Below the pieces are notes generated by a model that saw only the letters and a program-made list of their open reading frames with translations, ran no database searches and had not been told where the DNA came from. A stretch of DNA of 64,000 bases from Sulfurospirillum sp. 1612 (GTDB lineage: Bacteria > Campylobacterota > Campylobacteria > Campylobacterales > Sulfurospirillaceae). The translations under genes and the position numbers were made by a program. The number at the start of each line of letters is the position of its first letter. Position 1 is the stretch's first letter. Location of the stretch: contig NZ_CP140614.1 of assembly GCF_036556685.1 (NCBI RefSeq), forward strand, positions 806,001 to 870,000, read 5' to 3'. Of this stretch, positions 44,609 through 64,000 are shown in pieces.

Positions 44609-44624
44609 TAATAGAAGGAACGTT

Positions 44625-46319: not shown

Positions 46320-46323
46320 ATGA

Positions 46324-46353: not shown

Positions 46354-46358
46354 CATGA

Positions 46359-47129
46359 CTATGCTGCTCCGATGTAAAGGAGTATGATGCCAAATATGAT
46401 TCTATAAATCCCAAAACTCACGAAGGTAAAGCGCTCTAAAAATGATAAAAAGAGCTTGATCGTGAGATAGGCGACGATAAAAGAGACGACAAATCCGATG
46501 CTAAGGGTCAGGATATTTTCGTTTGAAAATTCACGATAATGTTTCAAAAATTCATAGCCACTGACTGTTATCATTACCGGAAAAGCCAATAAAAAACTAA
46601 ATTCTGCACTGATTTTTCGATTGAGACCAACCAGCATGCCTCCGATAATCGTAGCACCAGCACGACTGGTGCCGGGGATGAGTGCAAAGATTTGTGCCAG
46701 ACCAATGAGTAGCGATTGTTTATAGGTGAGTGTTTCTACATTTTGAACATGATGCTTTTTTTCTTGGTAAAATTTTTCCACAATCAAAAATACAATTCCC
46801 CCGATGATGAACATAATCGCGACGATATTGGTAGAAAAGAGATCTTTAATCTGGTGTCTGAAAATAAAGCCAATGATGGCAATCGGTAAATATGCGACGA
46901 TGATACGCTTCCACAGTTCAATCTTTTTGGGGCTAAATTTTTCTCTATAAACCAAGACGACCGCTAAAATTGCAGCCAATTGAATGATGATTTCAAAGGC
47001 TTTAGTGTAAGTGTTTTGAGCCAATCCCAAGGCTTGACTCGCCACAATCATATGCGCTGTCGAAGAGATTGGCAAAAATTCTGTGAACCCTTCGATAATA
47101 CCCAAGATGGCAGATTGTAAGATATCCAC
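46359..47129 (-). CDS. uppP: Undecaprenyl-diphosphatase
   Basis: Recycles the lipid carrier by dephosphorylating undecaprenyl diphosphate; also gives bacitracin resistance. 256 residues, eight membrane helices. Catalytic motifs EGFTEFLPISSTAHMIVA and PGTSRAGATIIGGM. Its start overlaps the end of valS by one base. Confidence 0.95.
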   Translation of the reverse strand: MDILQSAILGIIEGFTEFLPISSTAHMIVASQALGLAQNTYTKAFEIIIQLAAILAVVLVYREKFSPKKIELWKRIIVAYLPIAIIGFIFRHQIKDLFSTNIVAIMFIIGGIVFLIVEKFYQEKKHHVQNVETLTYKQSLLIGLAQIFALIPGTSRAGATIIGGMLVGLNRKISAEFSFLLAFPVMITVSGYEFLKHYREFSNENILTLSIGFVVSFIVAYLTIKLFLSFLERFTFVSFGIYRIIFGIILLYIGAA

Positions 47130-49756
47130 TACGCAATCGCCTCTAATTCTTGTTGCACTTTTTCATATTTGTTTTTTGCTTCGCTGAGCGCGGTTTGGTT
47201 TTGTTCTACGACGGCTTTGGGTGCATTGGCGATAAATTTTTCATTGCCTAGCATTTTTTCAAGCTTCATGATCTCCATCTCAAGTTTACTTTTTTGGTTG
47301 TTTAAGCGCTCGATAATCGGTCCTAAATCGATATCTGCAAGTGGGATATAAATCTCTAAATTATCGCTGATATCACTGGCACTATTTGGTATTTTTTCAT
47401 TGACAAGTGTGATATTTTCGACTTTTGCCAAGAGTTTGATATACGGCAAGGCATGGCGTAAAATCTCTGGATTATCAAGTTTGATAGAAGCATTGGCAAT
47501 TTTTTTGTTACCCATCTCAATATTGGCTTTGGCCCTTCGGATACTGATAATAGCTTCGATTACTAATTCAAACGTCTTCTCCGTATCATAATCGCGAGAT
47601 GTCGCTTTTGGATAGGATTTTATCATGATAGATTTTTCATCTTCCAATACGGTACCGGAGAGCTCATGATATAAAAATTCTGAGATGAATGGAGTCAGCG
47701 GATGGATGAGTTTCATCGCCTCTTTAAAGATGCTTCCTAACTCTTTGATACTGGATTTATCCGCTTTGCTCAGCTCGATGCCCCAATCGCAGAATTCACC
47801 CCACAAAAATCGATACAGTACGGTTGCGGCATCGTTGAATCGATACGAGTCAAAATACTCTCGTGTCTCTTTTGTCGCGATAGCCAGGCGACTGTTCATA
47901 TATTTGCCTAGCGGTGTTTTAATCTCAATATTCTCAAGGTCTTCAAATTTACTTTCGTTCATCAAAAGAAATCGTGAGGCATTGTAGAGTTTATTGGTGA
48001 AATTTCGAATCTGTTCTAATTTCTCGCCACTGAGTTTGATGTCTCTGCCTTGTACGGCTAAAATCGCCAAAGTAAATCGAAGCGTATCCGCGCTGTATTC
48101 TTCGATGGTGTCAAGCGGATTGATGACATTGCCTTTGGATTTACTCATCTTTTGGCCGTGTTCATCTTTGACAAGTGCATGCAAATAGATATCTTTAAAT
48201 GGCAATTCTTTAAAGGCATGTTCTCCTTGGAACATCATCCTTGCGACCCAGAAAAAGAGGATATCAAAACCCGTGATGAGTAGGGTATTGGGATAAAATG
48301 TTTCCATGTCCTCTTCAAACCATTTTTCACCTTTAAGGGCTTTTCCATTGCCCCAGCCTAGTGTTGAAAAAGGCCACAAACCAGAACTAAACCAAGTATC
48401 TAAAACATCAGGGTCTTGATAGATATTTTTACTCTCACATACCGGACATACCAATTGGGTATCTTTTTCACTCGCCCATTCATAGCCACAATCTTTACAA
48501 TAAAAAACCGGGATACGATGTCCCCACCATAGCTGGCGTGAAATACACCAATCTCTGAGGTCTTTCATCCAAGCATTAAAAGAGTTAATCCAGTGTGCGG
48601 GATAAAATTCAGCTAAGTGTTCGTTGACTTTTTTGATGGTGCCATCGGCAATCTCTTTTTTGACAAACCATTGTTTGGAGATATAAGGCTCCACGACATT
48701 ATGGCAGCGATAACAGTGTCCGACTTGATTTTCATAATCTTCAATTTTGTCTATAAAACCAGATTCTTCTAATTTTTTGACAATCAAATCACGTGCTTCT
48801 AATCGCTCTAAACCTTCAAATTCACCACAATATTCATTTAAAATTCCTTTATCGTTAAAGATGGTGATAAATTTAAGATCATGACGCTTTCCGACTTCGT
48901 AGTCGTTGAGATCATGAGCGGGAGTGACCTTAACGCAACCGGTTCCAAATTCCATATCGACATGGGTATCAGTAATAATCTCGATTTCTCTGCCAACGAG
49001 TGGTAATATGACTTTTTTGCCAACCAAAGAGCGGTAGCGCTCATCATCAGGATGTACCATCACCGCCGTATCGCCAAAGTAGGTTTCCGGTCGCGTTGTT
49101 GCTACTACGAGGTACTCTTGGGAGTCTTTTAGAAAATATTTGAGGTGGTAGAGTTTGCCTTGGTTTTGTTCGTATTCGACTTCAATGTCGCTGAGGGCGC
49201 CATCGTGGGTACACCAGTTGACCATGTAATTGCCACGGACAATCATCCCCTCATTATAAAGATTAACAAAGGATTTTTTAACCGCATTTTTCAATCCTTC
49301 ATCCATCGTAAATCGCTCACGGCTCCAAGCTGGTGAGATACCGAGTTTTCGCATTTGATGGACGATTTCTCCGCCGCTGAATTCTTTCCATTCCCATACT
49401 TTTTTCAAAAAGGCTTCGCGGCCGATTTCATCTTTGGTAATCCCCTGAGCCAAAAGTTGTTTTTCGACGACATTTTGTGTCGCAATACCCGCATGATCGG
49501 TGCCAGGTTGCCACAGTGTCTTATACCCATCCATTCGTTTGTATCTGGTGATAATGTCTTGCAATGTAAAGGTTAGTGCGTGTCCGATATGTAGGCTTCC
49601 CGTGACATTTGGAGGGGGCATCATGATACAGAATTTTTTATCTTTTTCTTGAATTTCTTCATTGCCATCAATCTCGAAATATCCCCGTTCTTCCCATATT
49701 TTATAATAGGCGTCTTCGATATTTTTTGGATTATAAACCGTGCTTTTTTCACTCAT
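47129..49756 (-). CDS. valS: Valyl-tRNA synthetase
   Basis: Charges tRNA-Val. 875 residues. HIGH motif PPPNVTGSLHIGHALTF, editing domain, KMSKS motif (GQKMSKSKGNVINPLD), anticodon-binding domain and a C-terminal coiled coil (about 810-870). A zinc-ribbon-like insert (FYCKDCGYEW, then LVCPVCESKN) lies before DPDVLDTWFSS. The first gene of the valS-uppP unit. Confidence 0.98.
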   Translation of the reverse strand: MSEKSTVYNPKNIEDAYYKIWEERGYFEIDGNEEIQEKDKKFCIMMPPPNVTGSLHIGHALTFTLQDIITRYKRMDGYKTLWQPGTDHAGIATQNVVEKQLLAQGITKDEIGREAFLKKVWEWKEFSGGEIVHQMRKLGISPAWSRERFTMDEGLKNAVKKSFVNLYNEGMIVRGNYMVNWCTHDGALSDIEVEYEQNQGKLYHLKYFLKDSQEYLVVATTRPETYFGDTAVMVHPDDERYRSLVGKKVILPLVGREIEIITDTHVDMEFGTGCVKVTPAHDLNDYEVGKRHDLKFITIFNDKGILNEYCGEFEGLERLEARDLIVKKLEESGFIDKIEDYENQVGHCYRCHNVVEPYISKQWFVKKEIADGTIKKVNEHLAEFYPAHWINSFNAWMKDLRDWCISRQLWWGHRIPVFYCKDCGYEWASEKDTQLVCPVCESKNIYQDPDVLDTWFSSGLWPFSTLGWGNGKALKGEKWFEEDMETFYPNTLLITGFDILFFWVARMMFQGEHAFKELPFKDIYLHALVKDEHGQKMSKSKGNVINPLDTIEEYSADTLRFTLAILAVQGRDIKLSGEKLEQIRNFTNKLYNASRFLLMNESKFEDLENIEIKTPLGKYMNSRLAIATKETREYFDSYRFNDAATVLYRFLWGEFCDWGIELSKADKSSIKELGSIFKEAMKLIHPLTPFISEFLYHELSGTVLEDEKSIMIKSYPKATSRDYDTEKTFELVIEAIISIRRAKANIEMGNKKIANASIKLDNPEILRHALPYIKLLAKVENITLVNEKIPNSASDISDNLEIYIPLADIDLGPIIERLNNQKSKLEMEIMKLEKMLGNEKFIANAPKAVVEQNQTALSEAKNKYEKVQQELEAIA

Positions 49757-49848
49757 AATAATAGATACCTTATAATTTTTAACGCGATTATACTAAAAGG
49801 GGATTGAAATGTTGTTTAATCAAAGATGTTTAAGGGATTTTAATGTAG

Positions 49849-49854
49849 TATAAT
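49849..49854 (+). promoter_or_regulatory. -10 element for the haem-cyclase/MSHA operon
   Basis: TATAAT 30 bases before the ATG at 49885, with no clear -35. I see no other likely promoter or terminator from here to the window end, so it may serve the whole 14-kb run. Confidence 0.5.
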
Positions 49855-49884
49855 ACGTATCATATAGGTTTTTAAGGATTAGGG

Positions 49885-51696
49885 ATGCGGGGAAACAAAA
49901 AAATATTAGCTATTTTTGCGGGCATTTTGCTCTCTTTTTCTTTATTAATTATTGCTATTGTTGTGGTGAGTTTTAAAAGCTATGTCCAAAAACGAGAATT
50001 TGTGCAAGCCAAGATTGTCGCCTCTATGGTTGAGGGTGGATTAACCGCGCATATGAATGCGGGTGTCATGAGCCAGCGTCAACTTTTCTTGGAAAATGCG
50101 AAAAAATCCGCAGATGCTCTTGATATTTGGATTTTTAGAACGGACAAAGTCGTCCAGGAATTTGGCAAAGGCTTTCCCAATGAAACAGTGAGAGATGCCA
50201 TAGACAAAACAATGATAAAAACCAAAAAAATTCAAGAAGTGATTCATGATGATCTTCTAAATCCAACCCTTCGGATCACCATCCCCTATATTGCAACAGC
50301 GCATTCTCATCCTGATTGTCTCAGTTGTCATACCAATGCAAAAGAGGGCGATGTACTAGGGGGTATTAGTATGGTATTTAGCCTGCAACAAGCCCGATAT
50401 AATAGTATCATGACGATTTTGCGTATTTTTGGTATTTCGATTCTCTTTATCATACTGTTTATTTTTGTGACGAGTAAACTGCTGAAACCTTATGTGGGAA
50501 GTTTAATCTATATCAAAGAATCCTTGGAAAAAGCCAACAAAGGTGATTACTCAACACGTATCAAACTCATGGGAGATAATGAATCCACAGAAGCGTTCAA
50601 ATGGCTCAATACCCTTCTTGAAAAGCTGCAAGAGATGGTCGGCTCGATTGATAAAAATATCGCACTTTTTGTCTCTGATCGTCGGCAAACCTTTCAAGAC
50701 CCCCTAGAAAAATCAAAATTTATCATCGAAGATATCGCGATGTTGTACCGGTTTAAAAAAGTCATCGAACAAGATATTTCCAAGCAAATCATTTACCAAA
50801 GATTGGTGAAATTTTTCAAAGAACACCTCAAGATTGAAAATTTGTCATTTTATGAAGTGGATATCAAAAAAGATACACGCACTTTGATATACGAAGACAT
50901 TACAGAGGATTTTTGTCACGCCTCAATCAATACCAGTGTCAATTGCAGAGCTTTTCGAACCAACTCGATTGTGGCGAGTGATGATTTTGAATCGGTATGT
51001 CAAGCGTGCAAATTGAAGCGAGATTATCTGTGTATTAACTATCCGATTGATGAAAATATCTCATTGGTTATCAATATCAAACCCAAAGATAGCGACGCTC
51101 TGTTTCAAAGCAAAAAAGCCATCGGCTATATCAAAAATTATCTTGAATCGGCCAGACCGGTTTTACAAAGCAAGATATTGACGGAAATCTTACAAAAATC
51201 CAATATGATTGATGGTTTGACAGGATTACACAACCGAAAATATCTGGATATTTTCATGGAAACGCGTGTCTTAGAGTATAAATCTTATGCGATTGCCATG
51301 CTGGATATTGATTATTTTAAAAAGGTCAATGACTCTTATGGTCATGATGCCGGAGATCGTGTGCTTAGAGGACTTTCTGAAATATTTAAAAAGACAATCA
51401 AGAAAGAAGATGTAGCGTTTCGCTTTGGTGGAGAAGAGTTTCTGATTTTTATGCCTACGAGTAAAGATGCTTATGAAACAATCAAAAAGATCAAAGACAT
51501 GTTTGAAAAAACTATTTTTGAGATGGGAGAGACGAGTCTCAATAAAACATTGAGTGCGGGAATATCGTATTACAAAGAAGATGCTCCAAGTGCGTGGCAA
51601 GTGATCAAAAATGCTGATATTGCTTTGTATGATGCCAAACATAGCGGTAGGAATAAAATCGTTTTGTTTAAGGACATCAAGGAAAAGGATCAATAA
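49885..51696 (+). CDS. Diguanylate cyclase with periplasmic c-type haem sensor
   Basis: 603 residues. Membrane segment (9-30); periplasmic domain (31-178) with one CxxCH haem c site, Cys145-His149 (PDCLSCHTNA), as in DUF3365/Tll0287-like sensors; second membrane segment (about 179-201); HAMP; GAF-like domain (about 295-420) with four or five Cys, including VCQAC and YLCINYP; GGDEF with DIDYFK and intact FGGEEF. The I-site position is KKED, so Arg is lost. It can be expected to make c-di-GMP in response to a redox or gas signal at the haem. It directly precedes the adhesin and pilus genes. Confidence 0.88.
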   Translation: MRGNKKILAIFAGILLSFSLLIIAIVVVSFKSYVQKREFVQAKIVASMVEGGLTAHMNAGVMSQRQLFLENAKKSADALDIWIFRTDKVVQEFGKGFPNETVRDAIDKTMIKTKKIQEVIHDDLLNPTLRITIPYIATAHSHPDCLSCHTNAKEGDVLGGISMVFSLQQARYNSIMTILRIFGISILFIILFIFVTSKLLKPYVGSLIYIKESLEKANKGDYSTRIKLMGDNESTEAFKWLNTLLEKLQEMVGSIDKNIALFVSDRRQTFQDPLEKSKFIIEDIAMLYRFKKVIEQDISKQIIYQRLVKFFKEHLKIENLSFYEVDIKKDTRTLIYEDITEDFCHASINTSVNCRAFRTNSIVASDDFESVCQACKLKRDYLCINYPIDENISLVINIKPKDSDALFQSKKAIGYIKNYLESARPVLQSKILTEILQKSNMIDGLTGLHNRKYLDIFMETRVLEYKSYAIAMLDIDYFKKVNDSYGHDAGDRVLRGLSEIFKKTIKKEDVAFRFGGEEFLIFMPTSKDAYETIKKIKDMFEKTIFEMGETSLNKTLSAGISYYKEDAPSAWQVIKNADIALYDAKHSGRNKIVLFKDIKEKDQ

Positions 51697-51731
51697 TCAA
51701 AACAAGTAAATTTGTTCATTTTTTATTTGTA

Positions 51732-54700
51732 TTGCTGTTTCCCATCTATGGAATGTCCGCCACTTTGGTCGTAGACAATACGCTTTCTTTCTTTGGATTT
51801 TTAAATTGTGAAGGGTTGTCGCTTTTTTCTTCATACTCTACCATTCAAGGCGCTTTAGATGATGCCACAGATGGCGATACTATTAAAATATGTAAAGGCG
51901 ATTATAACGAACAAGATAGCGTGCTTGTTGATAACCTAACGATTACCAATGGTGCCGATGTGTATGAGCCAAGTGATGTGAATTGGTACAATAATGGTGA
52001 TGTCTTAGTAGTAGGAGATAGTAGTCATTCTCCTAAAAATTTGGTAGTCCAAAACGTATCACTGTATTCTACGAGCAATTCTTCCAATTCCAAGGCTATT
52101 CGTATTAATTATGCACAATCAAAGATAACACTGAATAATTTGCTTATTAAAACTGATGGCGCAGATGGGGTTTATGGAAGTTACAATGTAAACAATGATT
52201 TACAAGGGGTCTTCAAAAATTTGACGATTGAAAGTGGCGGCAGTGGTATTTATATCAGCCAAGGAGGCCTCCAAGATTTTGAAAATATCGCTTTTACTCT
52301 CTCAGGAAACAGTGCCAATGATACTGCCATCAAGTTGCAACATAGCGTGGCAGATGAAAATCATATTTTTAAACACCTCTCTTTTGATGTGGGAAAACAA
52401 CCGGCTATTGCGTTAAGTAGCGGAAAACAGATGATATTTGAAGATATTAATATTACGGCTAGCAACTATACGAATAATACCAATGCGATAGCTTCTGATT
52501 ATGGCACAACAGTAGATGATTTGACTTTTAATGATATCAATATCAGTCTGAACAAAGGAACGGGTATTGAAATTGAACAAGGAAACAATATTAATGTCGA
52601 TAACTGTACGATTAGCGGCAGTACTCAATATGCATTTCATACCGGTAGTGGAATAGATGGCGCTCTGACATTTAAAAATATTGCATTTGATACTAATGGG
52701 AATTATGGCTTACTCGTACAAGAAGGGACCGATGTCACTATAAATAATGCCACAATCAGTGGCAGTTCGGGCAATGGCTGGGGCATCAAGACAGATTGGA
52801 GTGTGACAGGAAGTCTGGATTTTAGTGATATTAATGTGACGGCTCATGCGGGTGGGATTAAAGCGACACAAGGAGATAATGCTGTTTTTGAGAATGTGAG
52901 AATCAACAGCGATAGTAGTAGCTCCAATGACAATGGTCTTGAGTTTGATTCTAGTACATTTGAAAATATTACGATTTCAAATTGTGATATTAATGCTACT
53001 GGAAATGCCTTGCAAGTCAATAATGCAAGTGGGACTCTTAACGTCAATGCTTCCAAACTGACCACTAATGGCAACTATGCCCTTTATCTTAAAACCGGTG
53101 TGATGATGGCATTGATTGAAAATTCTTGTTTCTACAATACCTCAAGTAGTGGTAATAGTTATGCGATGTATCTCTATAATTGGCATACGATTTCTGTCAA
53201 TAACAATTGTATCTATGCGCTAAATGGCGGAAATTATGCTTATGCTTCAAGTTCATACGATTGGGATGGAAATTACTGGGATGGTGTGAGCGATAGTAGT
53301 GGAGACGGTGCCATTAGCCGAGATGATACAACAAAAATAAGTACCAATATTGTAGATAATAATCCTCTTACCATGTGCCAGAATAGTTGTGGTGGTGGTA
53401 CGGATTTTACGCTAAAAGAGTGTTATTATGATAATTTCAATAGAGCGAGTTTGGGTGAGAGATGGAGCATCATTAGTACCGGAACCTATCCTCCTGATAT
53501 TACCGATAACAAACTCATGTTGACAAAAAATCATAACAATATTGCCTCAGGGGTATCACTTGTGGGCAAGTTTCCTGCTCAAAATAATCTCGTGCAGATA
53601 GAGTTTGAGCACAACGCTTATGGCGGTAGTGGTGCTGATGGGATGACCATAGTCTTTTCAGATGCAAATACTACCCCTGTTGCTGGAGCTTCTGGTGGGT
53701 CATTGGGTTATGCCCAAAAAACGGGAATTAGTGGTTTTGCAGGAGGTTGGCTTGGCTTTGGACTTGATGAATATGGAAACTTTTCAAATCCGACAGAAGG
53801 TCGCGTGGGAGGTACCAGCCTGACCAAAGATGCTTTGGCAATTCGAGGATCTGAAGGAGATAATTATCAATATATCGCAGGAACCGGTACATTAAGTCCC
53901 GGAATCGATGATACCAGCGCATCAACGCCCGCACCAAATTATAAATATAAATTTATCATTGATACCAGAAACTCTCAAACACTGATTACCGTATATCGAG
54001 ATACTCTTGATGGCAATGGCTATGTCTTGTTGTCCAATATGGATGAGGTCAATGCAACGCAAAGTGCCAGTAGTCCTGAAAATTTTAGATTTAGTTTGAC
54101 AGGTTCAACTGGAGGTTCTACTAATTATCACAGTCTTGATGACCTCAATATCAGCGCAGCCAATTGTGGTACATTGGGAAAATTAGCAGAGAATCCAAAC
54201 AGCTATTTTGATGCTTGGGAAGTCGGAGCGAGCTACAATGTGAGCAATCGTGTCATCAAAACAAAAATTGTCAAGCAAAATTTTAATCTCAATATTTTTG
54301 CACTCAATGAAAGCAATACGGATTATCAGGATTTCAATGGTACCGTTTGTGCCAGTGTGGTGGATAGTAACACTCACAAAGTGCTTTCAAATTGGGTAAA
54401 ACTTTTATTTGATGCGACCAATCCTTATGTGAATGTCGCCACATTTAATTCTGAGTATGCGAGTCACGATGCGCAGATTGATTTGGTTTGGAAAGAAAAT
54501 GTTGATACGACTTGTCCGATTAGTGATGAAGACAACAGTACACGCTCCACCGATCATTTTGCAATCCGACCGCTTAAATTTACCATCGATACCAATACGA
54601 CATCTCTATATGCTGGCGTACCTTTTCGTTTGGATATAAATGCTAGCAATAATAGTGGTGGCAATAGTTTGGATTATAATGAGACCAATGGGACCTCTTA

Positions 54701-55946
54701 TACTATCAGTATCAGTGATTCCAATGCCACATGCCCTAGTGGCAGTTTGGGGAATGTACCCGATCCGATTCAATTTTCCAACGGTGGTGTGAGTTTCACT
54801 CCAAAATACAGCGATGTCGGCGATGTCAACATCACAATCAAAGAAAATTTAGGTAGTGAATTTGCCTATATTGACCATAATGATTCTAGTGATACAGAGC
54901 GGTTGATTCCCACAGTGAGCAAAACGATAACGTTCAATCCATACCGGTTTGCTATTATTGATGCTAGTTTTGTGAGAGATCCCAATCAAGATTGGCGCTA
55001 CATGGCAAATGTGGATGATACCAATATCAGCCTCTCGTTCAAAGTCCAAGCTCAAAATGCTGATGGTGATGTCACTAAAAAATTTGACCGATACTGTTAT
55101 AGCCATGATGTTGGAGTTACAATCGATGTCAATGCCACGAGTAGTGATGGCAATATCAGTTATACTCAATTTATCAACAATACCATGACAACCGCTCATG
55201 ATAAAAATCTCAGTAATCCAGATTTTAATGCGACGATTAATGATCAAAATTTTACCGAAGGCAATAGCTCGCTTGTCATGTATGCGCTGAATGTTTACAG
55301 ACAACACAATATCCCAAAAGACCCGCTAACAATGACGATGGAGGATATAAATACCAGTTACCCAACCGATGTCAATGTACTCAATCCTGGACTCGTCTTA
55401 GAGAATAATGACAGTCAGTTTTATTATGGGCGCGTCAAAACTCATGATATTGATACAAACAAGCAAAGCGCACTATTTGATCTGCAAATAGAAGTCTATT
55501 CAACCGCGGGCACCTCCTATGTCAGTGGATTTCATCAAAATAGTACCCATTGGTATCAAATGCAAAAAGATAGTAGCACACAGATGAGTGCCCTTTTACC
55601 AAAAAAAGATTTTACACTGAGCGAAGATGAAAACAACATCAATGCGATTACACCGACGCAAAATACCACTCTTGGAATCGACCGCTTTACTATAAGCAAT
55701 ACGTGGAGCAATTCAAATTCTGCTTATATCCATGTCAAATCGCCTGCATATCTGTGGTTTAATCATTACAAAGATTATAATGACAGCAATACCAGCGATT
55801 GTTCGCAGCATCCGTGTTTTAAATACAATTATTTTCATAAGAGCACTGCGGTGTTGATCCAAAGTGGAGATTTTAATGGGACAGATATTGGCAATGAGTA
55901 CAATCAAACCAATTACATAAAATCTGGTGTGAAAGTATTCAGATGA
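51732..55946 (+). CDS. mshQ: Giant beta-helix/lectin/MshQ-like surface adhesin
   Basis: 1404 residues from the TTG at 51732. Residues about 25-530: right-handed beta-helix repeats rich in Asn, Ser and Gly (for example NNINVDNCTISGS). About 560-790: an L-type lectin-like domain (DGMTIVFSDANTTP, GGWLGFGLDEYGNFS). About 800-1400: DUF6701/MshQ-type region (STDHFAIRPLKFTI). A good signal peptide (KTSKFVHFLFVLLFPIYG) begins before any ATG, GTG or TTG; the open frame reaches 51672. The true start may be ATA 51693 or ATC 51696. Likely the pilus-tip adhesin. Confidence 0.75.
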   Translation: MLFPIYGMSATLVVDNTLSFFGFLNCEGLSLFSSYSTIQGALDDATDGDTIKICKGDYNEQDSVLVDNLTITNGADVYEPSDVNWYNNGDVLVVGDSSHSPKNLVVQNVSLYSTSNSSNSKAIRINYAQSKITLNNLLIKTDGADGVYGSYNVNNDLQGVFKNLTIESGGSGIYISQGGLQDFENIAFTLSGNSANDTAIKLQHSVADENHIFKHLSFDVGKQPAIALSSGKQMIFEDINITASNYTNNTNAIASDYGTTVDDLTFNDINISLNKGTGIEIEQGNNINVDNCTISGSTQYAFHTGSGIDGALTFKNIAFDTNGNYGLLVQEGTDVTINNATISGSSGNGWGIKTDWSVTGSLDFSDINVTAHAGGIKATQGDNAVFENVRINSDSSSSNDNGLEFDSSTFENITISNCDINATGNALQVNNASGTLNVNASKLTTNGNYALYLKTGVMMALIENSCFYNTSSSGNSYAMYLYNWHTISVNNNCIYALNGGNYAYASSSYDWDGNYWDGVSDSSGDGAISRDDTTKISTNIVDNNPLTMCQNSCGGGTDFTLKECYYDNFNRASLGERWSIISTGTYPPDITDNKLMLTKNHNNIASGVSLVGKFPAQNNLVQIEFEHNAYGGSGADGMTIVFSDANTTPVAGASGGSLGYAQKTGISGFAGGWLGFGLDEYGNFSNPTEGRVGGTSLTKDALAIRGSEGDNYQYIAGTGTLSPGIDDTSASTPAPNYKYKFIIDTRNSQTLITVYRDTLDGNGYVLLSNMDEVNATQSASSPENFRFSLTGSTGGSTNYHSLDDLNISAANCGTLGKLAENPNSYFDAWEVGASYNVSNRVIKTKIVKQNFNLNIFALNESNTDYQDFNGTVCASVVDSNTHKVLSNWVKLLFDATNPYVNVATFNSEYASHDAQIDLVWKENVDTTCPISDEDNSTRSTDHFAIRPLKFTIDTNTTSLYAGVPFRLDINASNNSGGNSLDYNETNGTSYTISISDSNATCPSGSLGNVPDPIQFSNGGVSFTPKYSDVGDVNITIKENLGSEFAYIDHNDSSDTERLIPTVSKTITFNPYRFAIIDASFVRDPNQDWRYMANVDDTNISLSFKVQAQNADGDVTKKFDRYCYSHDVGVTIDVNATSSDGNISYTQFINNTMTTAHDKNLSNPDFNATINDQNFTEGNSSLVMYALNVYRQHNIPKDPLTMTMEDINTSYPTDVNVLNPGLVLENNDSQFYYGRVKTHDIDTNKQSALFDLQIEVYSTAGTSYVSGFHQNSTHWYQMQKDSSTQMSALLPKKDFTLSEDENNINAITPTQNTTLGIDRFTISNTWSNSNSAYIHVKSPAYLWFNHYKDYNDSNTSDCSQHPCFKYNYFHKSTAVLIQSGDFNGTDIGNEYNQTNYIKSGVKVFR

Positions 55947-56599
55947 TGAAAAAATCTGGGCGCTCTGGCTTGTCACTGATTGAATTGATTTTCACGATTG
56001 TTATCATCGGGATTGTCTTCACTGTGATTCCCAAAATCATTTTTTCGTTGAACAAAAGCGATCAATTTGCCATCAGGCAAGATGCGCTTTTTAACGGAAT
56101 CTCTATGATGCAGATGATCTCATCTCTAGCCTGGGATGAAAACAATACAGCTTCAAACGATATCCTACATGTGAACGCTGGCAATGCACTTTTTGATTGT
56201 AACAGCACGACACATTATAGAATCGGTGGATTTATAGGCTCAAGAAACTGTGAAAATGATAAAAATGCGAGTGTGATGGGAGATTTTGCAGGAACCAATT
56301 ATTTTTTGGCCAATAATATCGACCGTTTTAATAACCAAGATATCAATGCATCCTACTACAATTTACACATCAGCGTCCAATATATCGACGAAAATATTAC
56401 ATATCCCTCACCACATCAAGCCAAAGTGATGTTAAATACTCATGGTGCAGCGTCCAATGACACCACAAATTTAAAAAGAGTAGAGTTAAACATCACCTAT
56501 AATGGAAAACGAGGCACGGTAGGAAAACAAATCGCACAATTTTCCTATGTTTCAGCTAACATCGGGCAGATGACCTTCAATAGTAGAGTCTGGAAATGA
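55943..56599 (+). CDS. Type IV prepilin-like protein 1
   Basis: 218 residues. Prepilin signal with cleavage at G|LSLIELIFTIVIIGIV: Gly -1, Leu +1 and Glu5 present. The rest is a globular pseudopilin domain with two Cys. Role in the MSHA-type pilus as a minor pilin (position resembles MshD). Overlaps the adhesin stop (ATGA). Confidence 0.82.
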   Translation: MMKKSGRSGLSLIELIFTIVIIGIVFTVIPKIIFSLNKSDQFAIRQDALFNGISMMQMISSLAWDENNTASNDILHVNAGNALFDCNSTTHYRIGGFIGSRNCENDKNASVMGDFAGTNYFLANNIDRFNNQDINASYYNLHISVQYIDENITYPSPHQAKVMLNTHGAASNDTTNLKRVELNITYNGKRGTVGKQIAQFSYVSANIGQMTFNSRVWK

Positions 56600-57528
56600 A
56601 AAAAGCCTTTACGCTCGTAGAAGCGATTATCACCATCGTCATCATCGGGATTTTATCCGCAGGGACTTTTGTGGCACTCAAACACTTATATTTACGTGCC
56701 GCCAAAGCCAAAGCCTTCAGTGAGCTCTCCAGCGATTCTCAAGTCATCGCAGATCAAATTGCCTCCTTGTTATACTATCGGGTTCCCAGCTCTGTCATTG
56801 GTTACAAGGGTGATGGAAGCTTTGGCTCGATTTATAATATGGAAACATCATATCAGATTTTAGAGTGGATTGGCTCGGCGAGTGAGGGGCTAAAAGCTGG
56901 ATATTACAGTGGTTTTGTGGATTTAAATGCCTCCGATAAAACAACGCAAACGATTACTTCTTATGATATCAATACCACCGCTCTTGACACGCTGATGGCC
57001 GACAAATTTGATGGGGGTAGTACAGATGATTTAGCGCTTATCTTTGCAGGGAGTTTTGATGATGGCGCGCTCTCTTTGGCTAGTGATTTTAACAGCTCTT
57101 TTGGGTGGCATGCTCATAATCATAATCTCCTCTATACCCTCCAAAGTTTGCATACTAATAGCATCACCTTAGATGCATCACCCGATATTATTTATGAAAA
57201 ATATTATTTGGTCGATAGCGCTTATGCGATTGCACGGGGTGCGGATATTGACTTAAATGCCACTTGTATTAGAAATTTAAATCAAAGTATTGATAACAAT
57301 ACGCTTTTTTTATTTTATAATTATCGCCCTTGGAAAAATCAAACATTTTGTGCTGACCCCCATGGTGGTAGTACCCAAGATGGCAATGTCACGATACTCT
57401 CCTCTTATGTCACGGGATTTCAAACCGGATTGATTAATGGCAATATCAAATTTGATGTGACACTCACCAAAAAGATTCGAGGCAGTGAGCATAATGTCAC
57501 TATCTCCAAACAAAAGGTAGTATTTTGA
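56596..57528 (+). CDS. Type IV prepilin-like protein 2 (MshO-like)
   Basis: 310 residues, MshO size. Signal KKA|FTLVEAIITIVIIGIL with Ala at -1 and Glu5 present. A large globular part follows. Overlaps both neighbours by 4 bases. Minor pilin or tip subunit by position. Confidence 0.82.
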   Translation: MKKAFTLVEAIITIVIIGILSAGTFVALKHLYLRAAKAKAFSELSSDSQVIADQIASLLYYRVPSSVIGYKGDGSFGSIYNMETSYQILEWIGSASEGLKAGYYSGFVDLNASDKTTQTITSYDINTTALDTLMADKFDGGSTDDLALIFAGSFDDGALSLASDFNSSFGWHAHNHNLLYTLQSLHTNSITLDASPDIIYEKYYLVDSAYAIARGADIDLNATCIRNLNQSIDNNTLFLFYNYRPWKNQTFCADPHGGSTQDGNVTILSSYVTGFQTGLINGNIKFDVTLTKKIRGSEHNVTISKQKVVF

Positions 57529-57980
57529 TGCGCCGTGGATTTGGTTTGATTCAAGCCTTGATTGTCATCATCTTAGTGAGTGGTCTATTGGTCGTAGCGA
57601 TGAAATACGCCACAATCACAATCAAACAGACCTCCGATGCTTATGTCAAGGAGAGCGCCGAACTTTTTATGAAAAGTGCCGTAGAGATGAGTTTATTGGC
57701 TATCAGTGGCTATGAACGCAACAGTACCCAAGGATGCTTGCAAGAGGTTCATATCACCTCTGCTGATGATAGGTTTTTTGCTGATGTCAATATTACAAAA
57801 TATTATCTCTTAAGTGGAAGTCAAGATTGTAGCGATTGTGGTGCGTTATGCCAAAGTGTTCAAACTGAAGACTCACATGGCATGGTGTTGCTCAATGTGC
57901 ATGTCCAAACCAATCCCCATAATACTAGAAACAAAAATAAAACCATCTCACTTTATATGAGGACATTGCAAAGACCATGA
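57525..57980 (+). CDS. Prepilin-like protein 3 without Glu5 (MshP-like)
   Basis: 151 residues. Signal MMRRG|FGLIQALIVIILVSGL: Gly -1, Phe +1, but residue 5 is Gln instead of Glu. MshP, PilX and GspK also lack Glu5; such subunits tend to sit at the tip. A CxxC (CSDCG) and two other Cys are in the globular part. Confidence 0.8.
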   Translation: MMRRGFGLIQALIVIILVSGLLVVAMKYATITIKQTSDAYVKESAELFMKSAVEMSLLAISGYERNSTQGCLQEVHITSADDRFFADVNITKYYLLSGSQDCSDCGALCQSVQTEDSHGMVLLNVHVQTNPHNTRNKNKTISLYMRTLQRP

Positions 57981-58441
57981 AAAAACATCAATACACTCAC
58001 CGCGCATTCACGATATTGGAGTTGATTTTTGTTATTATCTTGATAGGCATCATCAGTAGTATTGGGCTGAGTTCTTTGCCTGATAATAGGTTGCTGAATG
58101 ATACCAACTTTGTCATCATGAAAATCAAAGAGACACAACGCCATGCGCTAGGCAATGATGTGATAGGATTCAATACTCCTTGGAGTGTGCAAAGTGATGC
58201 GACTTGTCTGGATGTAAATAACACAAGTTTCGAAGAAAAAGCGCGTCAGAATTCTACTCCTTTTCAATTTGTTTCTGATGTGAGTAGTGAAAATAAGCGT
58301 CTGTGTTTTGATGAATTTGGCAGACCCTATCATGATGAGAAATTAATACAACAAAAATTAGACATAAATATCACCTATAATCACGAAATGAACACGATTT
58401 CAGTCCAACCAATGAGTGGATATGTTATAATAAAAAATTAA
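57977..58441 (+). CDS. Type IV prepilin-like protein 4
   Basis: 154 residues. Signal HRA|FTILELIFVIILIGII with Ala -1 and Glu5, a form common in Campylobacterota. Size and pattern suit a GspH-type minor pilin or MshC-like protein. Overlaps the preceding gene by 4 bases; 20 bases separate it from the next. Confidence 0.82.
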   Translation: MKKHQYTHRAFTILELIFVIILIGIISSIGLSSLPDNRLLNDTNFVIMKIKETQRHALGNDVIGFNTPWSVQSDATCLDVNNTSFEEKARQNSTPFQFVSDVSSENKRLCFDEFGRPYHDEKLIQQKLDINITYNHEMNTISVQPMSGYVIIKN

Positions 58442-58461
58442 AACTAAAGGTTAAGGTTAGC

Positions 58462-59955
58462 ATGGCAGAAAAACAAGAAATCCAGTATATTAACCCCGTT
58501 GATCTGACATTGATTGCTTATGATGGCGTTCGCTTCAAAGAGACGCAGTATCAATCGCGTCTCAAGAGTGTCTCTCGGGTTTTATATGAGCATGTTATCA
58601 TCTATAGTTTTAAAATTCCCGCTTCACAAAAACAAGATGATTTAAATTCATTAGTTGAAATCAAGATGTACGAAGAAGCCGGTCTTGATGTCAATAAAAA
58701 TTATAAAATTACCTACATTGTCAAAGCACTGGATTTTGATGAAAGTAATCTCATAGAAGCGTTTGCGATTGATCAGGATATCTTAAGGGAATATTTTAAG
58801 GGTGCGGTTAAAAAAGTCAAATACATTGATTTTTTAGCGCTACCGTTTTTTGCTTTTACGACCTTTTATACTAACAAAATATTAACCGGCAAAAATGATA
58901 TTTTTGTCTATTTGAGTGAGCAAGAATCTTTTATGAGTTTCTACAAAGATGGCGCATACATCTCAACAAAATCACAAATCAACATCACAGAAATTATCGA
59001 AAAATTAAAAGCAAATGATATTGATTTGAGTGTGGATGCCTTTTATGAACTCTTGAAAAATAAAGGTTTGGATGCGACACAATATGAGCCACAAGAGCGC
59101 GAACTTTTTAATTTGATAGAGTCGATTTTCTCCCAAATACTCACCAAAATCCAAAACGTTGCGATGCACAATCGGAGTGTTTTTGACTTTGATACCATCG
59201 ATCGCATCTTTTTGAGTACACCCCAAGGACGTATTAGAGGACTGAAAGAGTTTGTTTTGACATTTGGTTTGAGTGATACAAACGTACTGGATTTTAATCT
59301 TTTTAAAGAAAAACAAACCCATCATTTCTTGGACAACGTTGTAGCATCTTATGGGCAAGATAACATCATCGCGCACTCTGATGGACAAAATGCGACGATT
59401 TTCACAAGAAAACCCAGCTTTCTCAAAACACGAACAGGGAAACTCTTTATGAGCGTGATGCTTGTATTTATCATGATGCTTGTTGCTTATGAATATCTTG
59501 CGATGTCGATAGCCTCCTTACGCCAAAAAGAAGAGGTGCTAAGCGCTCAACACCAAACGACAAAAAGAGTACTCAATCAATATAAAACCGCCATTAAAAA
59601 ACAAAATGCATTGATTGTCAAAGAGCAAGAGGCAATCGCCAAGCAGCATAATGTCATGAGTCATATCCAAAATAGTATTGAAACGTTAGAGAATTTAAGA
59701 GGTAAAGACCAAGGGTATGTGAGTTTTTTAACACAGGTTAATGCCCTGCTGAAGCGCTTTGGATTGCATGCAAAAAGTATCCAACAAATCAACAAGCATA
59801 TGAAGATTGAAGTCATCTCTAGTTATACCAATCGTGATGAAATCGCCAAGTTTTTACGTGCATTAATACATGAAGGTTTTGTGAATGTTTCGACCGATGA
59901 AATCAAACTTGATGAGAAAAACTACATCAGTAAAATAGGAATTGAACGTGAATAA
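58462..59955 (+). CDS. Fused PilM-PilN-like assembly protein (MshI position)
   Basis: 497 residues. The N-terminal 330 residues are cytoplasmic and can be a degenerate actin-like (PilM/GspL) domain. A membrane segment at about 333-353 (LFMSVMLVFIMMLVAYEYLA) is followed by a coiled coil (about 360-420) and a small alpha/beta domain, as in PilN/MshI. It would be the cytoplasm-to-periplasm link of the pilus platform. Confidence 0.65.
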   Translation: MAEKQEIQYINPVDLTLIAYDGVRFKETQYQSRLKSVSRVLYEHVIIYSFKIPASQKQDDLNSLVEIKMYEEAGLDVNKNYKITYIVKALDFDESNLIEAFAIDQDILREYFKGAVKKVKYIDFLALPFFAFTTFYTNKILTGKNDIFVYLSEQESFMSFYKDGAYISTKSQINITEIIEKLKANDIDLSVDAFYELLKNKGLDATQYEPQERELFNLIESIFSQILTKIQNVAMHNRSVFDFDTIDRIFLSTPQGRIRGLKEFVLTFGLSDTNVLDFNLFKEKQTHHFLDNVVASYGQDNIIAHSDGQNATIFTRKPSFLKTRTGKLFMSVMLVFIMMLVAYEYLAMSIASLRQKEEVLSAQHQTTKRVLNQYKTAIKKQNALIVKEQEAIAKQHNVMSHIQNSIETLENLRGKDQGYVSFLTQVNALLKRFGLHAKSIQQINKHMKIEVISSYTNRDEIAKFLRALIHEGFVNVSTDEIKLDEKNYISKIGIERE

Positions 59956-60556
59956 TTTCGAAAATTATCTCGAGAATGTGGATAAAAAGCAGCGGTACTT
60001 GATCTATGTGATGATTTTTGGATTGATGATTTATGTGTTTGTTTATATCATGATGCCCCGTTTAGATGAGCAAAAAAACCTTGAAAATAATATCAATCAA
60101 TTGCAAACACAATTGAGACAAAATGCACCCACTAAATTTAAAAATACTTTGGCATTGAAAGAGAAGCAACTCTTGCAATTGCGAACGGAAAAAGAGAGTA
60201 AGCAAGAACAAATCAATCTTTTGGTTTCAGGATTGTATCAACTAAAATTTGCTCTATTTGATGATAAAAAATGGGCGAAAAATATCACAGAAATCTTGCA
60301 AAATTCGCTCAAAAGAAATCTCCAAATCGATTATATTAAAAGCAGCAACGTGAAAAATCAAAATAGCAAAGATATCCTCCAAAAAAAGAAAACACTTGAG
60401 ATACAAGGGAGTGGTAATTACATTGATATCGTAGCATTTATCTCCTATATCGATACGCTTGATACCTTGTTGCAATTTAGTAAAAGTGATATCTTCCTCA
60501 AAGATAATCGCGTCAATTTCAAGCTAGATATTGATTTATATGGGATAGGATTATGA
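59948..60556 (+). CDS. mshJ: PilO/MshJ-like assembly protein
   Basis: 202 residues from the GTG at 59948. A short cytoplasmic start, one membrane segment (about 20-37), a coiled coil (about 45-85) and a ferredoxin-like fold (KTLEIQGSGNYIDIVAFISYIDTL), the PilO/MshJ/GspM layout. TAGGA lies 7 bases before this GTG but only 1 base before an upstream TTG, so the GTG is chosen. Confidence 0.75.
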   Translation: MNNFENYLENVDKKQRYLIYVMIFGLMIYVFVYIMMPRLDEQKNLENNINQLQTQLRQNAPTKFKNTLALKEKQLLQLRTEKESKQEQINLLVSGLYQLKFALFDDKKWAKNITEILQNSLKRNLQIDYIKSSNVKNQNSKDILQKKKTLEIQGSGNYIDIVAFISYIDTLDTLLQFSKSDIFLKDNRVNFKLDIDLYGIGL

Positions 60557-60939
60557 GAATATTTTTGATGGTCATGGTTTCTCTGTCGATTCTTTTTGGT
60601 GCTGATTTGTCCACGCGATTAGATCAATTGATTCACAGCAAGAAAGAGAATAAAATTGTTGTTTTGAATTACAATCCTTTTGTTGTAACCAAAAAAGTAA
60701 AGGGTACGACAACATCGGTCATGAGTACCAGCAACAAGCAAGCATCACCTATTCATTTTGTAATGGTACTCAATCATAGTGCCTTTATCAATGGTCATTG
60801 GTACAAAGTCGGTGAGCGTGTAGCAGGATACAAGATAAAGAAAATTTTTACAGATAAGATTAAGATAGAGAAAAAAGGTGTGACGAGAACGCTTTATTTG
60901 AAAAAGAAACAACAGATATTGAATATAAGGGAAAAATAA
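60553..60939 (+). CDS. mshK: MshK/PilP-like periplasmic protein
   Basis: 128 residues with a signal peptide (MRIFLMVMVSLSILFGAD). The C-terminal part, FINGHWYKVGERVAGYKIKK, matches the MshK/GspC-HR-type pattern that contacts the secretin. Overlaps the previous gene by 4 bases and is followed by the secretin after 2 bases. Confidence 0.72.
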   Translation: MRIFLMVMVSLSILFGADLSTRLDQLIHSKKENKIVVLNYNPFVVTKKVKGTTTSVMSTSNKQASPIHFVMVLNHSAFINGHWYKVGERVAGYKIKKIFTDKIKIEKKGVTRTLYLKKKQQILNIREK

Positions 60940-60941
60940 AC

Positions 60942-62375
60942 ATGAAGATTAGATTTTTATTGTTAACTTCAGTACTTCTTGCGACATTGGCATTTGCAAA
61001 TTGTGAAAATAAACTATTTTCTTTCAGCATTAAAGACAATACCACGCAGCATGTTAAAATCATGGATGTTTTAGAAAACATTACCGACACCTGTCATATG
61101 ACGATGTTGTTTGAAGATGGTTTTGTTAAAAAGGAATTGGACAAGAATCTCAATTACATTAATGTCAAAGATTTTTCTCTCAAAGAGTTGCTCAATTTAT
61201 TATTGCGTGATCGCAATCTGTTTTATACATTGGATGAAAATCAAAAAATATTAAAAATCTCCTATCTTAAAACCAAATCTTATTTCCTAGATTATGTGAG
61301 CTTTACCAAACGAACCAGCAGCACCAACAAAACTATCAAAACGGGCTCTTCTACGGGTAAGGGAGCAGAAGATTCTACGACGATGGATTTTACTTCGGAT
61401 TTTCAATTTTGGAGCAAAATCGAATCTGAGGTCAATAATATCCTTAACCGGGGTCAAAATGAGAGTAAACGCGTATCAAAAGCGTTGATCAATCAAGATG
61501 CTGGGATGATTACAGTCACGGGTACAAAAAAACAATTGGATATGGTGGAACACTATATCAAAGACATCATGAGACGACTTCACAAAGAGATACTCATCGA
61601 AGCAAAACTCATCGAAGTAAAATATACAGATAGTAAGACCAATGGAATTGACTGGAGTAAATTTAAACTCTCCCTTAGCGGCTCAAGTGATGCATTGGCC
61701 TCGCGGACAAGCGGTAGTTCGATCAATGGCTTTGTAAAACCAAATTACCTCATAGGCTATAATTTTTCGATGGAAGGTTTGCTTGATTTTCTAAAAACGC
61801 AAGGGGATGTTAAAATTGTCTCTAATCCAAAAGTTATGACACTCAACAACCAATCGGCTGTCATTAATGTGGGAACCGAAGTCAATTATCGCTATGATAG
61901 CGGTAGCACCACGACCACTTCAAGTGGTGGGTCTGTGACGACACCAAATTACACAGCAGATTCTACCTTTGTTGGTGTGACACTGGATATCACGCCGCAA
62001 GTTACCAATGACAACTTTATCATGCTCAAAATCAATCCAACAGTGAGCGAGATAGAAAAAGAACACATCGATAGTGATGGCGTTCCATTTTTGGCGCCGG
62101 ATATCAAAATCAAACAACTCTCCTCTATTGTGAAGGTAAAAGATGGAAATAAAGTGTTAATCGGCGGATTGATTAATAAAGATGAAACTTCAAGTAAAAC
62201 GAGTGTGCCGTTGTTATCTTCCATCCCATTGTTGGGCAAAGCGTTTCAAAGCGACGGGAAAGTCATCACTAATAGTGAGTTGATTATCGTTTTGATTCCG
62301 CATATTATTGATATTAATAAAAAACCAGATTTAAACGATTTTGATATCAAAATCGATAGAAAATATAAAAAATGA
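60942..62375 (+). CDS. mshL: MSHA-type outer-membrane secretin
   Basis: 477 residues. Signal peptide; STN-like N-domain (about 50-105); an N1-type domain; then the secretin core with the signature GNKVLIGGLINKDE and VPLLSSIPLLGKAF. A Ser/Thr/Gly-rich loop (around TTTSSGGSVTT) lies inside the core, as in GspD/PilQ gates. It forms the pilus exit pore. Confidence 0.92.
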   Translation: MKIRFLLLTSVLLATLAFANCENKLFSFSIKDNTTQHVKIMDVLENITDTCHMTMLFEDGFVKKELDKNLNYINVKDFSLKELLNLLLRDRNLFYTLDENQKILKISYLKTKSYFLDYVSFTKRTSSTNKTIKTGSSTGKGAEDSTTMDFTSDFQFWSKIESEVNNILNRGQNESKRVSKALINQDAGMITVTGTKKQLDMVEHYIKDIMRRLHKEILIEAKLIEVKYTDSKTNGIDWSKFKLSLSGSSDALASRTSGSSINGFVKPNYLIGYNFSMEGLLDFLKTQGDVKIVSNPKVMTLNNQSAVINVGTEVNYRYDSGSTTTTSSGGSVTTPNYTADSTFVGVTLDITPQVTNDNFIMLKINPTVSEIEKEHIDSDGVPFLAPDIKIKQLSSIVKVKDGNKVLIGGLINKDETSSKTSVPLLSSIPLLGKAFQSDGKVITNSELIIVLIPHIIDINKKPDLNDFDIKIDRKYKK

Positions 62376-63172
62376 GAGATTTTTCAGCTGCAAAAGCACT
62401 CTTTAGAGATGTGATTGATGCCAGGAATTATTTTGATAGTGTGAGTGCGGAGATTGCACGTCACAAGGTTGAAAACTCTATCGAAACAAAAGAAGCACCG
62501 CTGATATTTTTGATTGGAGACCCGGGTGTGGGAAAGAGCTATATCCTCAAGCTCATCAACCTGGAACAGTCCAAAAATTCCCTGACGGTTTTTATCGATC
62601 ATCCCTTTTTTGACAAAAGAGATTTGCTGAAGATTTTGTATGAAGCCAAGGGTATTGCTTTTGATAAAGATACTAATTTTAACGAGCTCAAGGAAGTTTT
62701 GCTTGAAAATTACCGAGACAGCAATCACACTATTTTCATCGATGAGGCGCAACTCTTAAATGAAGAACAGTTTGAACTGATACGCATACTTAGCGATACA
62801 AAGGTATTCCAGTTTGTTCTCTCAATGCACAAAGAAGAGGGTATGGCAATCTTGGAGAAAAAACATTTTAAATCGCGTACCAAGGTGGTAGTGGAATACG
62901 GAGTCTTGCATCATGATGAGGTGTTTCGCTATATTAAAAGCAGTTTACAATCAGTAGGACAAGAGGATATTATGGAGATGTTCACAGAAAAAATCGCCAA
63001 AAAAATTACCCATTATTGCAACGGTAATTTTAGAACCATCAAAAAATTTCTCTTTACACTTTTGTCTTTGTTGGAATATGCCAAGCAAAATGGCCTGAGA
63101 AAATATGACAAGATTAATCCTTGCTTATTGCAAATGAGTGCTTTGGAAATTGGAGTCATTCATGACAAATAG
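62372..63172 (+). CDS. mshM: MshM-type AAA ATPase
   Basis: 266 residues, ExeA/GspA-like AAA domain. Walker A GDPGVGKS (49-56), Walker B HTIFIDEAQLL and sensor ILSDTKVFQFVLSMHKEE. No membrane segment or peptidoglycan-binding domain is present, unlike ExeA. Usually needed for MSHA assembly. Overlaps both the secretin gene and mshN. Confidence 0.88.
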   Translation: MRDFSAAKALFRDVIDARNYFDSVSAEIARHKVENSIETKEAPLIFLIGDPGVGKSYILKLINLEQSKNSLTVFIDHPFFDKRDLLKILYEAKGIAFDKDTNFNELKEVLLENYRDSNHTIFIDEAQLLNEEQFELIRILSDTKVFQFVLSMHKEEGMAILEKKHFKSRTKVVVEYGVLHHDEVFRYIKSSLQSVGQEDIMEMFTEKIAKKITHYCNGNFRTIKKFLFTLLSLLEYAKQNGLRKYDKINPCLLQMSALEIGVIHDK

Positions 63173-63878
63173 AGCGTTTGAAGAGTTAGAGAGACGCTGC
63201 CAAGCGCTAAGACGAAAACGATTTTTAAAGTGGGCATTGTTGATAGTATTTCTTTTGGTGGCGGTAGGGACAATCGTTTTGATGTGGTACATGCCAGATA
63301 AAAAAGTTGTTTCTTCCAAGGTTTCACAACCACTACAAGAGACGCGTTTGCATCATGATATAAATCAGAGCAAAAATATCGCAACCCAAGATCAAGCGAT
63401 TGTATTAAATTCTCCAGATATTGTTCCAAAATTGAGTGATACGAAGCCAGAGAAAAAGAGAGCAACGGTGACAAAACCCGCTAAAATAGCTCCGGCAAAA
63501 GTGAAAAAAATTGAGCCGGTGCGCGAACCTAAAAAGGTAACACCCAAAGAAGAAAAACCAACAATCAAAATCTTTGTGAAGAGTGTCGGCAATGAAACGT
63601 CATTGCTAGAATCAAATCGCAAGGGAGAAGATTTTGATTCTTCATTGAAATTATCGCAATTTTATCTAAAAGCACATAAATATGAAAAAGCGATACAATA
63701 TTCCAAAAGAGCCAATCATTTTAATCCCTCATCTGCAAAACCATGGTTGATCTACGCTAAAGCAAAAATCAAACAAAACAAACGCAGTGAAGCAATCAAA
63801 GCATTGGAGACGTATCTTTCATATTTTAGTTCAGATGATGCGAGTAATTTACTGATTTCTATCAAAGGCAAACAATGA
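63162..63878 (+). CDS. mshN: MshN-like TPR membrane protein
   Basis: 238 residues from the ATG at 63162, which has GGAG 6 bases upstream; an earlier start at 63138 lies within mshM. A membrane segment (about 27-49), a Lys/Pro-rich periplasmic stretch (EPVREPKKVTPKEEKP) and C-terminal TPR repeats (YEKAIQYSKRANHFNPSSAK). Confidence 0.8.
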   Translation: MTNRAFEELERRCQALRRKRFLKWALLIVFLLVAVGTIVLMWYMPDKKVVSSKVSQPLQETRLHHDINQSKNIATQDQAIVLNSPDIVPKLSDTKPEKKRATVTKPAKIAPAKVKKIEPVREPKKVTPKEEKPTIKIFVKSVGNETSLLESNRKGEDFDSSLKLSQFYLKAHKYEKAIQYSKRANHFNPSSAKPWLIYAKAKIKQNKRSEAIKALETYLSYFSSDDASNLLISIKGKQ

Positions 63879-63925
63879 TACAGCGATATAGAGACGCAAA
63901 TGCGAGAATTAGGAACGTGATATGA
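63875..63925 (+). CDS. 16-residue mini-ORF between mshN and mshE
   Basis: ATG at 63875 overlaps the mshN stop (ATGA), and its TGA overlaps the mshE ATG in the same way. AAAGG lies 6 bases before it. Encodes a basic 16-residue peptide. It could relay ribosomes from mshN to mshE. Translation is not proven. Confidence 0.4.
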   Translation: MIQRYRDANARIRNVI

Positions 63926-64000
63926 TTCAAAAAAAGATACGAATCGGAGATATCTTAGAGGAAAAAGGGCTCATCACACATGAGCAACTCGAAATGGCTT
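63922..64000 (+). CDS. mshE: MshE pilus extension ATPase (5' end only)
   Basis: 26 codons visible before the window ends. KIRIGDILEEKGLITHEQLE is the start of a GspE/PilB/MshE N-terminal domain and fits the first half of the MshEN c-di-GMP motif, R(L/I)GxxL with the later QL. AGGA lies 7 bases before the ATG. The ATPase core is outside the window. Confidence 0.8.
   Translation, partial: MIQKKIRIGDILEEKGLITHEQLEMA

Follow-up and report, generated by a model that had tools for sequence, protein, structure and literature searches.

The gene cluster for mannose-sensitive haemagglutinin (MSHA) pili in Vibrio is headed by MshH/CsrD, a protein derived from GGDEF-EAL enzymes, while DosC and the other globin-coupled diguanylate cyclases are cytosolic and carry haem b. 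MshH/CsrD is a degenerate protein (PMC10333796). In Vibrio cholerae, the binding of cyclic di-GMP (c-di-GMP) by MshE promotes the extension of the MSHA pilus (PMC7096442, PMC5013675). The sCache_heme family, defined only recently, unites the GSU0582-type (PF21563) and Tll0287/DUF3365 (PF11845) domains; its members fused to signalling outputs behave as sensors of nitric oxide (NO) rather than of oxygen (PMC12889525), and in GSU0935, with His144 and Met60 as axial ligands, the release of the methionine upon oxidation has been proposed as the signal (PMC8396549). A 2022 census of c-di-GMP sensors makes no mention of c-type haem (PMC8846402). Here we describe a locus of Sulfurospirillum sp. 1612 (Campylobacterota; complete genome of 2.38 Mb) in which a diguanylate cyclase with a predicted periplasmic haem-c sensor heads an MSHA-type pilus operon. 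It lies at the end of a window of 64,000 nucleotides (nt) covering bases 806001-870000 of the genome, and coordinates are positions within this window unless marked otherwise.

Both the gene layout and the receptor hold up and are shared across the genus, and they represent a new combination of known parts. The best overall explanation, which we favour with moderate confidence, is that in this genus a transmembrane cyclase of an old and widespread haem-c family would have been placed between valS and the first msh gene and would now be co-transcribed with the pilus operon. Its periplasmic haem-c Cache domain would read redox state or NO, the signal would reach the GGEEF domain by way of the membrane helices, a HAMP-like segment and a GAF-like domain rich in cysteines, and the c-di-GMP produced would act on MshE.

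From position 49885 on the forward strand, the genes appear in the order cyclase, adhesin, four prepilin-like genes and mshI-J-K-L-M-N-E (Table 1), all as listed in an earlier reading of the DNA made from the letters only (the sequence-only reading). Past the window end come the remainder of mshE, mshG and then two convergent prepilins on the opposite strand, which are candidates for the major pilin. The intergenic distances from the cyclase through mshG are -4, -4, -4, -4, -4, +20, -14, -4, +2, -4, -35, +43, and +6 nt. Most junctions are therefore overlaps of exactly 4 nt, and the widest gap, 43 nt between mshN and mshE, is larger than the limit of about 35 bases given by that reading. This last gap (63879-63921) extends to several hundred nt in relatives (L038, L159, L161) and may hold a small extra gene. 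As stated earlier, no terminator was found between the genes on the forward strand of the operon, and an Rfam scan of 44000-64000 returned no matches. Consensus promoters within the operon (72 versus 52 in shuffles) are too numerous to be usable. A promoter-like block, TTTTTAAGGTTTTTTgaTGTAnnATAA, on the cyclase side of the valS/cyclase intergenic region is kept in six species of the genus and reads TGTAGTATAAT in the window, at about 49847. Together with the 4-nt overlaps, this conserved upstream block appears to speak against an internal promoter between the cyclase and the pilus genes, and we infer a single transcript for all of them.

The value of -4 between cyclase and adhesin presumes that the adhesin gene, which stands in the mshQ position, starts at ATA 51693; from TTG 51732 the gap would be +35. 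The ATA is the probable start, overlapping the cyclase stop as ATAA. Starting at the TTG would remove the signal peptide, the frame extends upstream as IIKTSKFVHFLFVLLFPIYGMSA with AGGA motifs ahead, and the resulting overlap is the same as at most downstream junctions. In two other species of the genus (G002, G003), the mshQ ATG lies 6-7 nt past the cyclase stop. Alternatively, there may be an assembly error in the start codon. A standard start codon for the adhesin signal peptide is seemingly missing from positions 51693-51734.

The periplasmic part of the cyclase contains a lone CxxCH (residues 145-149) between two predicted membrane helices. C145, C148, H149 and Met57 are invariant in an alignment of 35 sequences (A1), and both cysteines are kept in 63 of the 70 homologues of a wider set; Met57 is a candidate for the second axial haem ligand. 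In the full-length model, a strand (128-136), a helix (145-148) and a strand (157-166) follow one another, so that the CxxCH helix falls between Cache strands 3 and 4. A model of the sensor built from the 35 sequences (predicted local distance difference test score, pLDDT, of 90) has GSU0935 (3b42, E=1e-6) as its top fold match in the PDB, followed by CitA/DcuS. With the full-length model as query, the fold search brought up GGDEF proteins for the most part, and PDB sequence searches with the sensor, single or as a profile, yielded nothing beyond cytochrome fragments and coiled-coil noise. PF21563 reaches 20.1 bits in the window protein versus a gathering score of 27, and the two top families at E<=1 among the 35 members were PF21563 (12 members) and PF11845 (10 members). 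Judged by its modelled fold, the sensor belongs to the sCache_heme domains as a divergent member, and it would probably be loaded with haem; one cytochrome c assembly gene is encoded in the genome. Redox state or NO is our best guess for the signal sensed, because of the methionine release in GSU0935 and the NO sensing by sCache_heme proteins fused to signalling outputs, and oxygen binding is not favoured. A cd1 nitrite reductase, which would be a periplasmic source of NO, was not found in a search limited to this enzyme.

On the output side, the GGDEF domain matches PF00990 with 131.6 bits and has its substrate residues intact. GGEE is invariant across the alignment and GGEEF is seen in every row but one, which is consistent with an active diguanylate cyclase. 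An EAL domain is absent. The allosteric RxxD I-site, which serves product inhibition and is dispensable for cyclase activity, has been lost in 14/14 members of the clade of this cyclase and is kept in 54 of the 56 others, a loss that predates the linkage to msh.

MshE carries two c-di-GMP half-motifs of 24 residues each, R7...Q30, near the start of the protein, and K38...Q61, beyond the window end. The first had been noted from the sequence and the second had been proposed as a check; both are there. The NF053729 model gives 55.1 bits over residues 7-61 (cut-off 38) and 55-63 bits in all four orthologues tested (window genome, G003, G019, and G021), and binding of c-di-GMP by this MshE (MshE1) is predicted. 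After era there is a second msh-like locus (L005, genome positions 1062000-1076000), in which cyclase, adhesin and prepilins are absent within the stretch read and the MshE paralogue (MshE2) has no match to NF053729.

Regarding the pilus itself, the locus contains what characterizes an MSHA-type locus, namely an MshL secretin along with mshI-N, E and G in order. Two PilT-type retraction ATPases are encoded in the genome, and the predicted product is a retractile MSHA-type pilus. Elsewhere in the window (995-3065, reverse strand), the gene immediately after that of a PilT-type ATPase encodes a small GGDEF protein. Only prepilins 1 and 2 have prepilin matches in Pfam/NCBIfam, prepilins 3 and 4 being assigned by N-terminus and position, and mshI, mshJ, and mshK have no family-model matches and owe their names to order or orthology.

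Table 1. Features of the cyclase-msh locus, with positions in the window.
Feature	Position	Strand	Basis or remark
Divergent valS/cyclase intergenic region with promoter-like block	49757..49884	+	Alignment and sequence
Diguanylate cyclase, 603 amino acids (aa)	49885..51696	+	Transmembrane helix, periplasmic haem-c Cache, transmembrane helix, HAMP-like, Cys-rich GAF-like, GGEEF
sCache_heme-like sensor, residues 30-175	49972..50409	+	Fold match; CxxCH at 50317-50331
Cysteine site C344, C354, C372, C375, C383	50914..51033	+	At least four present in 66/70 homologues
GGDEF domain	51205..51657	+	GGEEF at residues 515-519; RxxD I-site replaced by KKED
Beta-helix surface protein in MshQ position, ~1400 aa	51693..55946	+	Probable ATA start; first standard start TTG 51732
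Prepilin-like gene 1	55943-56599	+	4-nt overlap with next
Prepilin-like gene 2	56596-57528	+	4-nt overlap with next
Prepilin-like gene 3	57525-57980	+	4-nt overlap with next
Prepilin-like gene 4	57977-58441	+	
mshI-like, PilM-PilN fusion	58462..59955	+	Named by order and orthology
mshJ-like	59942..60556	+	Named by order
mshK-like	60553..60939	+	Named by order
mshL secretin	60942..62375	+	TIGR02519, 251.3 bits, cut-off 250.2 (NCBIfam equivalog); PF00263
mshM AAA ATPase	62372..63172	+	PF13401
mshN, TPR protein	63138..63878	+	PF14559/PF12895
mshE, 5' end	63922..64000	+	Runs on to about 65589; NF053729, 55.1 bits

We compared the locus with those of nine other genomes of the genus beside the source genome (G000). 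Seven assemblies (G000, G002, G003, G004, G006, G007, and G008) can be read on the 5' side of valS, and in all seven the cyclase is the next gene, apart from a 267-aa frame that intervenes in G004. The cyclase is thus not a chance neighbour in a single genome, which the sequence-only reading had named as a way for its proposal to fail. Four assemblies can be read from the cyclase into the adhesin gene, which follows directly in G000 and G002 but after an interruption in G003 and G008, and the remaining order through mshG is intact in G003. The interruptions are nucleotidyltransferase (MNT)/HEPN-like gene pairs located where the adhesin gene begins (L038:4875-5644; L039:978-2054), and in G003 a remnant of the adhesin N-terminus precedes the insert. 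In other species of the genus the cyclase is about 61-66% identical, and that of the window falls within a well-supported clade of genus members (Shimodaira-Hasegawa-like approximate likelihood ratio test, SH-aLRT, of 99). The recurrence of the gene order in other species of the genus is more than chance.

Beyond the genus, most of 120 relatives have a full-length homologue of the cyclase, as do Marinospirillum, Aquificaceae and other bins, and the msh1-type locus is likewise widespread. The cyclase-msh arrangement, however, was not seen in any other genus sampled, and as a general feature of Campylobacterota it does not hold. The adhesin gene adjoins valS directly in G010, while in G012 and G019 other genes intervene; the valS neighbourhood of msh1 predates the arrival of the cyclase, and the simplest history is that the cyclase was inserted once, in the genus ancestor, between valS and mshQ. 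In G012 the genes between valS and the adhesin include one for an unrelated GGDEF protein (L174:1528-2796). Two isolated, independent cases place the family beside pilin genes elsewhere, a glmS-cyclase-three prepilins series in G066 (L049:12218-16209) and mshE-mshG-prepilins beside a family cyclase in G095 (L062:1-4817). A cyclase-msh linkage in the Nautiliaceae (f16), suggested by coordinates alone, was rejected, as era, hslUV, rplI and others, about 12 kb in all, lie between the two and the msh locus is of the msh2 type.

Several observations weigh against a cyclase wired to its own pilus motor. Nucleotidyltransferase/HEPN gene pairs part the cyclase from the adhesin in G003 and G008. In 26 of the loci read (e.g., L060, L067, and L079) the family cyclase follows glmS, its usual neighbour, and glnD often precedes the two; this pairing points to a possible link with amino-sugar supply, and the cyclase is absent, within the stretch fetched, from 7/7 msh1 loci of other genera (G010, G012, G019, G033, G078, G083, and G116). 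The second half-motif of MshE opens with Lys instead of Arg and is separated by a spacer of 7 rather than the 5 of the reference (PMC5013675). MshE orthologues retain the c-di-GMP motif where the cyclase is unlinked, and for this reason the receptor did not evolve for the haem-c cyclase. Finally, the genome encodes 29 GGDEF domains, 28 besides that of the cyclase, because of which private signalling from the cyclase to MshE, plausible as it is, can only be inferred.

Some of these points bear on another situation, possible but clearly less probable than the explanation that we favour, in which cyclase and pilus genes are merely co-expressed. Piliation and c-di-GMP would rise together, and the product would join a common pool with its main targets elsewhere (e.g., exopolysaccharide or flagella) and with MshE unprivileged. 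The many GGDEF domains, an amino-sugar enzyme (glmS) as the usual neighbour of the family, and an MshE motif that is kept without the cyclase would all suit co-expression alone, although it leaves out of account the tight translational spacing, the genus-wide retention of the cyclase beside the operon, and its absence from the second msh-like locus, precisely the one whose MshE is without the motif. The chain from haem signal through c-di-GMP to pilus motor proposed in the sequence-only reading has gained a genus-conserved layout and a complete MshE motif, but this motif is also kept where the cyclase is unlinked and many other GGDEF domains are present. The c-di-GMP may act on the MshE of the operon rather than on other targets, and we give a dedicated or privileged action on it about an even chance.

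A different question is which part of the cyclase senses. Between HAMP and GGDEF, in the GAF-like region, there are five cysteines (Table 1), of which C354 is found in 68/70 homologues and C372 and C383 in 69/70 each. Where the alignment has a gap at C344 (14 homologues), C375 is always present (14/14), and in the homologues that lack C375 but have the other three, C344 is present in 37/37. Such an obligate retention of four cysteines fits a metal site, making the site a candidate for a second sensor besides the haem. This site could even be the primary sensor, with zinc or an iron-sulphur (Fe-S) cluster responding to cytosolic redox, metal or NO and the haem as an accessory, which is compatible with the operon as interpreted here and would change the relevant signal. 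In favour of this, CxxCH is gone from seven Nautiliaceae-type homologues (L196-L200, L086, and L087) in which the cysteines persist. Nevertheless, we consider a primary role unlikely, since CxxCH is kept in 63/70 homologues, the 14 sequences with the C344 gap form one clade in the tree and the C344/C375 swap may be one event, and the metal site is putative, no homologue of the cysteine-rich domain being found in Pfam. Also improbable to our mind is a transmembrane cyclase with two cofactors, an outer haem c and an inner metal or Fe-S site of four cysteines, that would compare redox or NO across the membrane and give c-di-GMP directly to the pilus motor of the same transcript. What stands of the haem as the sensor is thus a CxxCH in a Cache fold, of a domain kind already known (PMC12889525, PMC8396549) and as one of two candidates. 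The cysteine site, the wide distribution of the family with its usual position after glmS, and the clade-wide loss of RxxD had been overlooked before.

That chance alone brought the cyclase between valS and mshQ in the common ancestor of the genus, and that it has stayed there functionally unlinked, is quite doubtful, for although the arrangement is confined to one genus and other genera have valS-msh1 without the cyclase (directly in G010, with unrelated genes between in G012 and G019), the mshQ start 6-7 nt past the cyclase stop in two species, the probable 4-nt overlap here, the adjacency to valS in all seven assembled cases and its retention at this degree of cyclase divergence argue otherwise.

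If the explanation of a haem-c cyclase co-transcribed with the operon and acting on MshE is true, periplasmic respiration chemistry would be translated into pilus extension, an unusually direct tie of electron acceptor or NO status to attachment in Campylobacterota, and the recently defined sCache_heme family would gain a concrete physiological output. The two msh-like systems in one genome, with and without the c-di-GMP motif, provide a built-in control, and the four-cysteine site, conserved in a widespread cyclase family that is often linked to glmS, offers a lead that can be tested and reaches wider than the operon.

Searches of open-licence papers for haem-c cyclases with MSHA, Sulfurimonas MSHA pili, and Fe-S cyclases brought up no description of the pairing, in line with the novelty claimed for it earlier. 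That claim has to be tempered by MshH/CsrD, a partial precedent. The parts are each known (sCache_heme, a c-di-GMP-binding MshE, and a c-di-GMP-type protein heading an msh cluster), and the wiring seems to be undescribed. With MSHA of V. cholerae the locus shares the mshI-J-K-L-M-N-E-G set, the adhesin in the MshQ position and both MshEN half-motifs in MshE, while the head gene here is a haem-c cyclase, prepilins and adhesin come first, and MshE differs in the Lys of motif 2 and in the 7-residue spacer. MshH/CsrD is equally a protein of the c-di-GMP family whose gene leads an msh operon, but it has degenerated and its role is in the decay of CsrB/C RNA, whereas the cyclase described here has an intact GGEEF, no EAL and a haem sensor. 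In DosC and other globin-coupled cyclases a haem sensor also governs the GGDEF domain; here the haem would be of the c type and attached in the periplasm. The sCache_heme proteins (GSU0582/GSU0935, Tll0287) have the same periplasmic Cache fold, in which strands 3 and 4 flank the CxxCH helix, and the same position upstream of a signalling output, and both GGDEF outputs and Campylobacterota have already been named for them (PMC12889525). Unlike these, the sensor of the present cyclase scores below the Pfam cut-offs, and the protein adds a four-cysteine cytosolic domain and heads a pilus operon.

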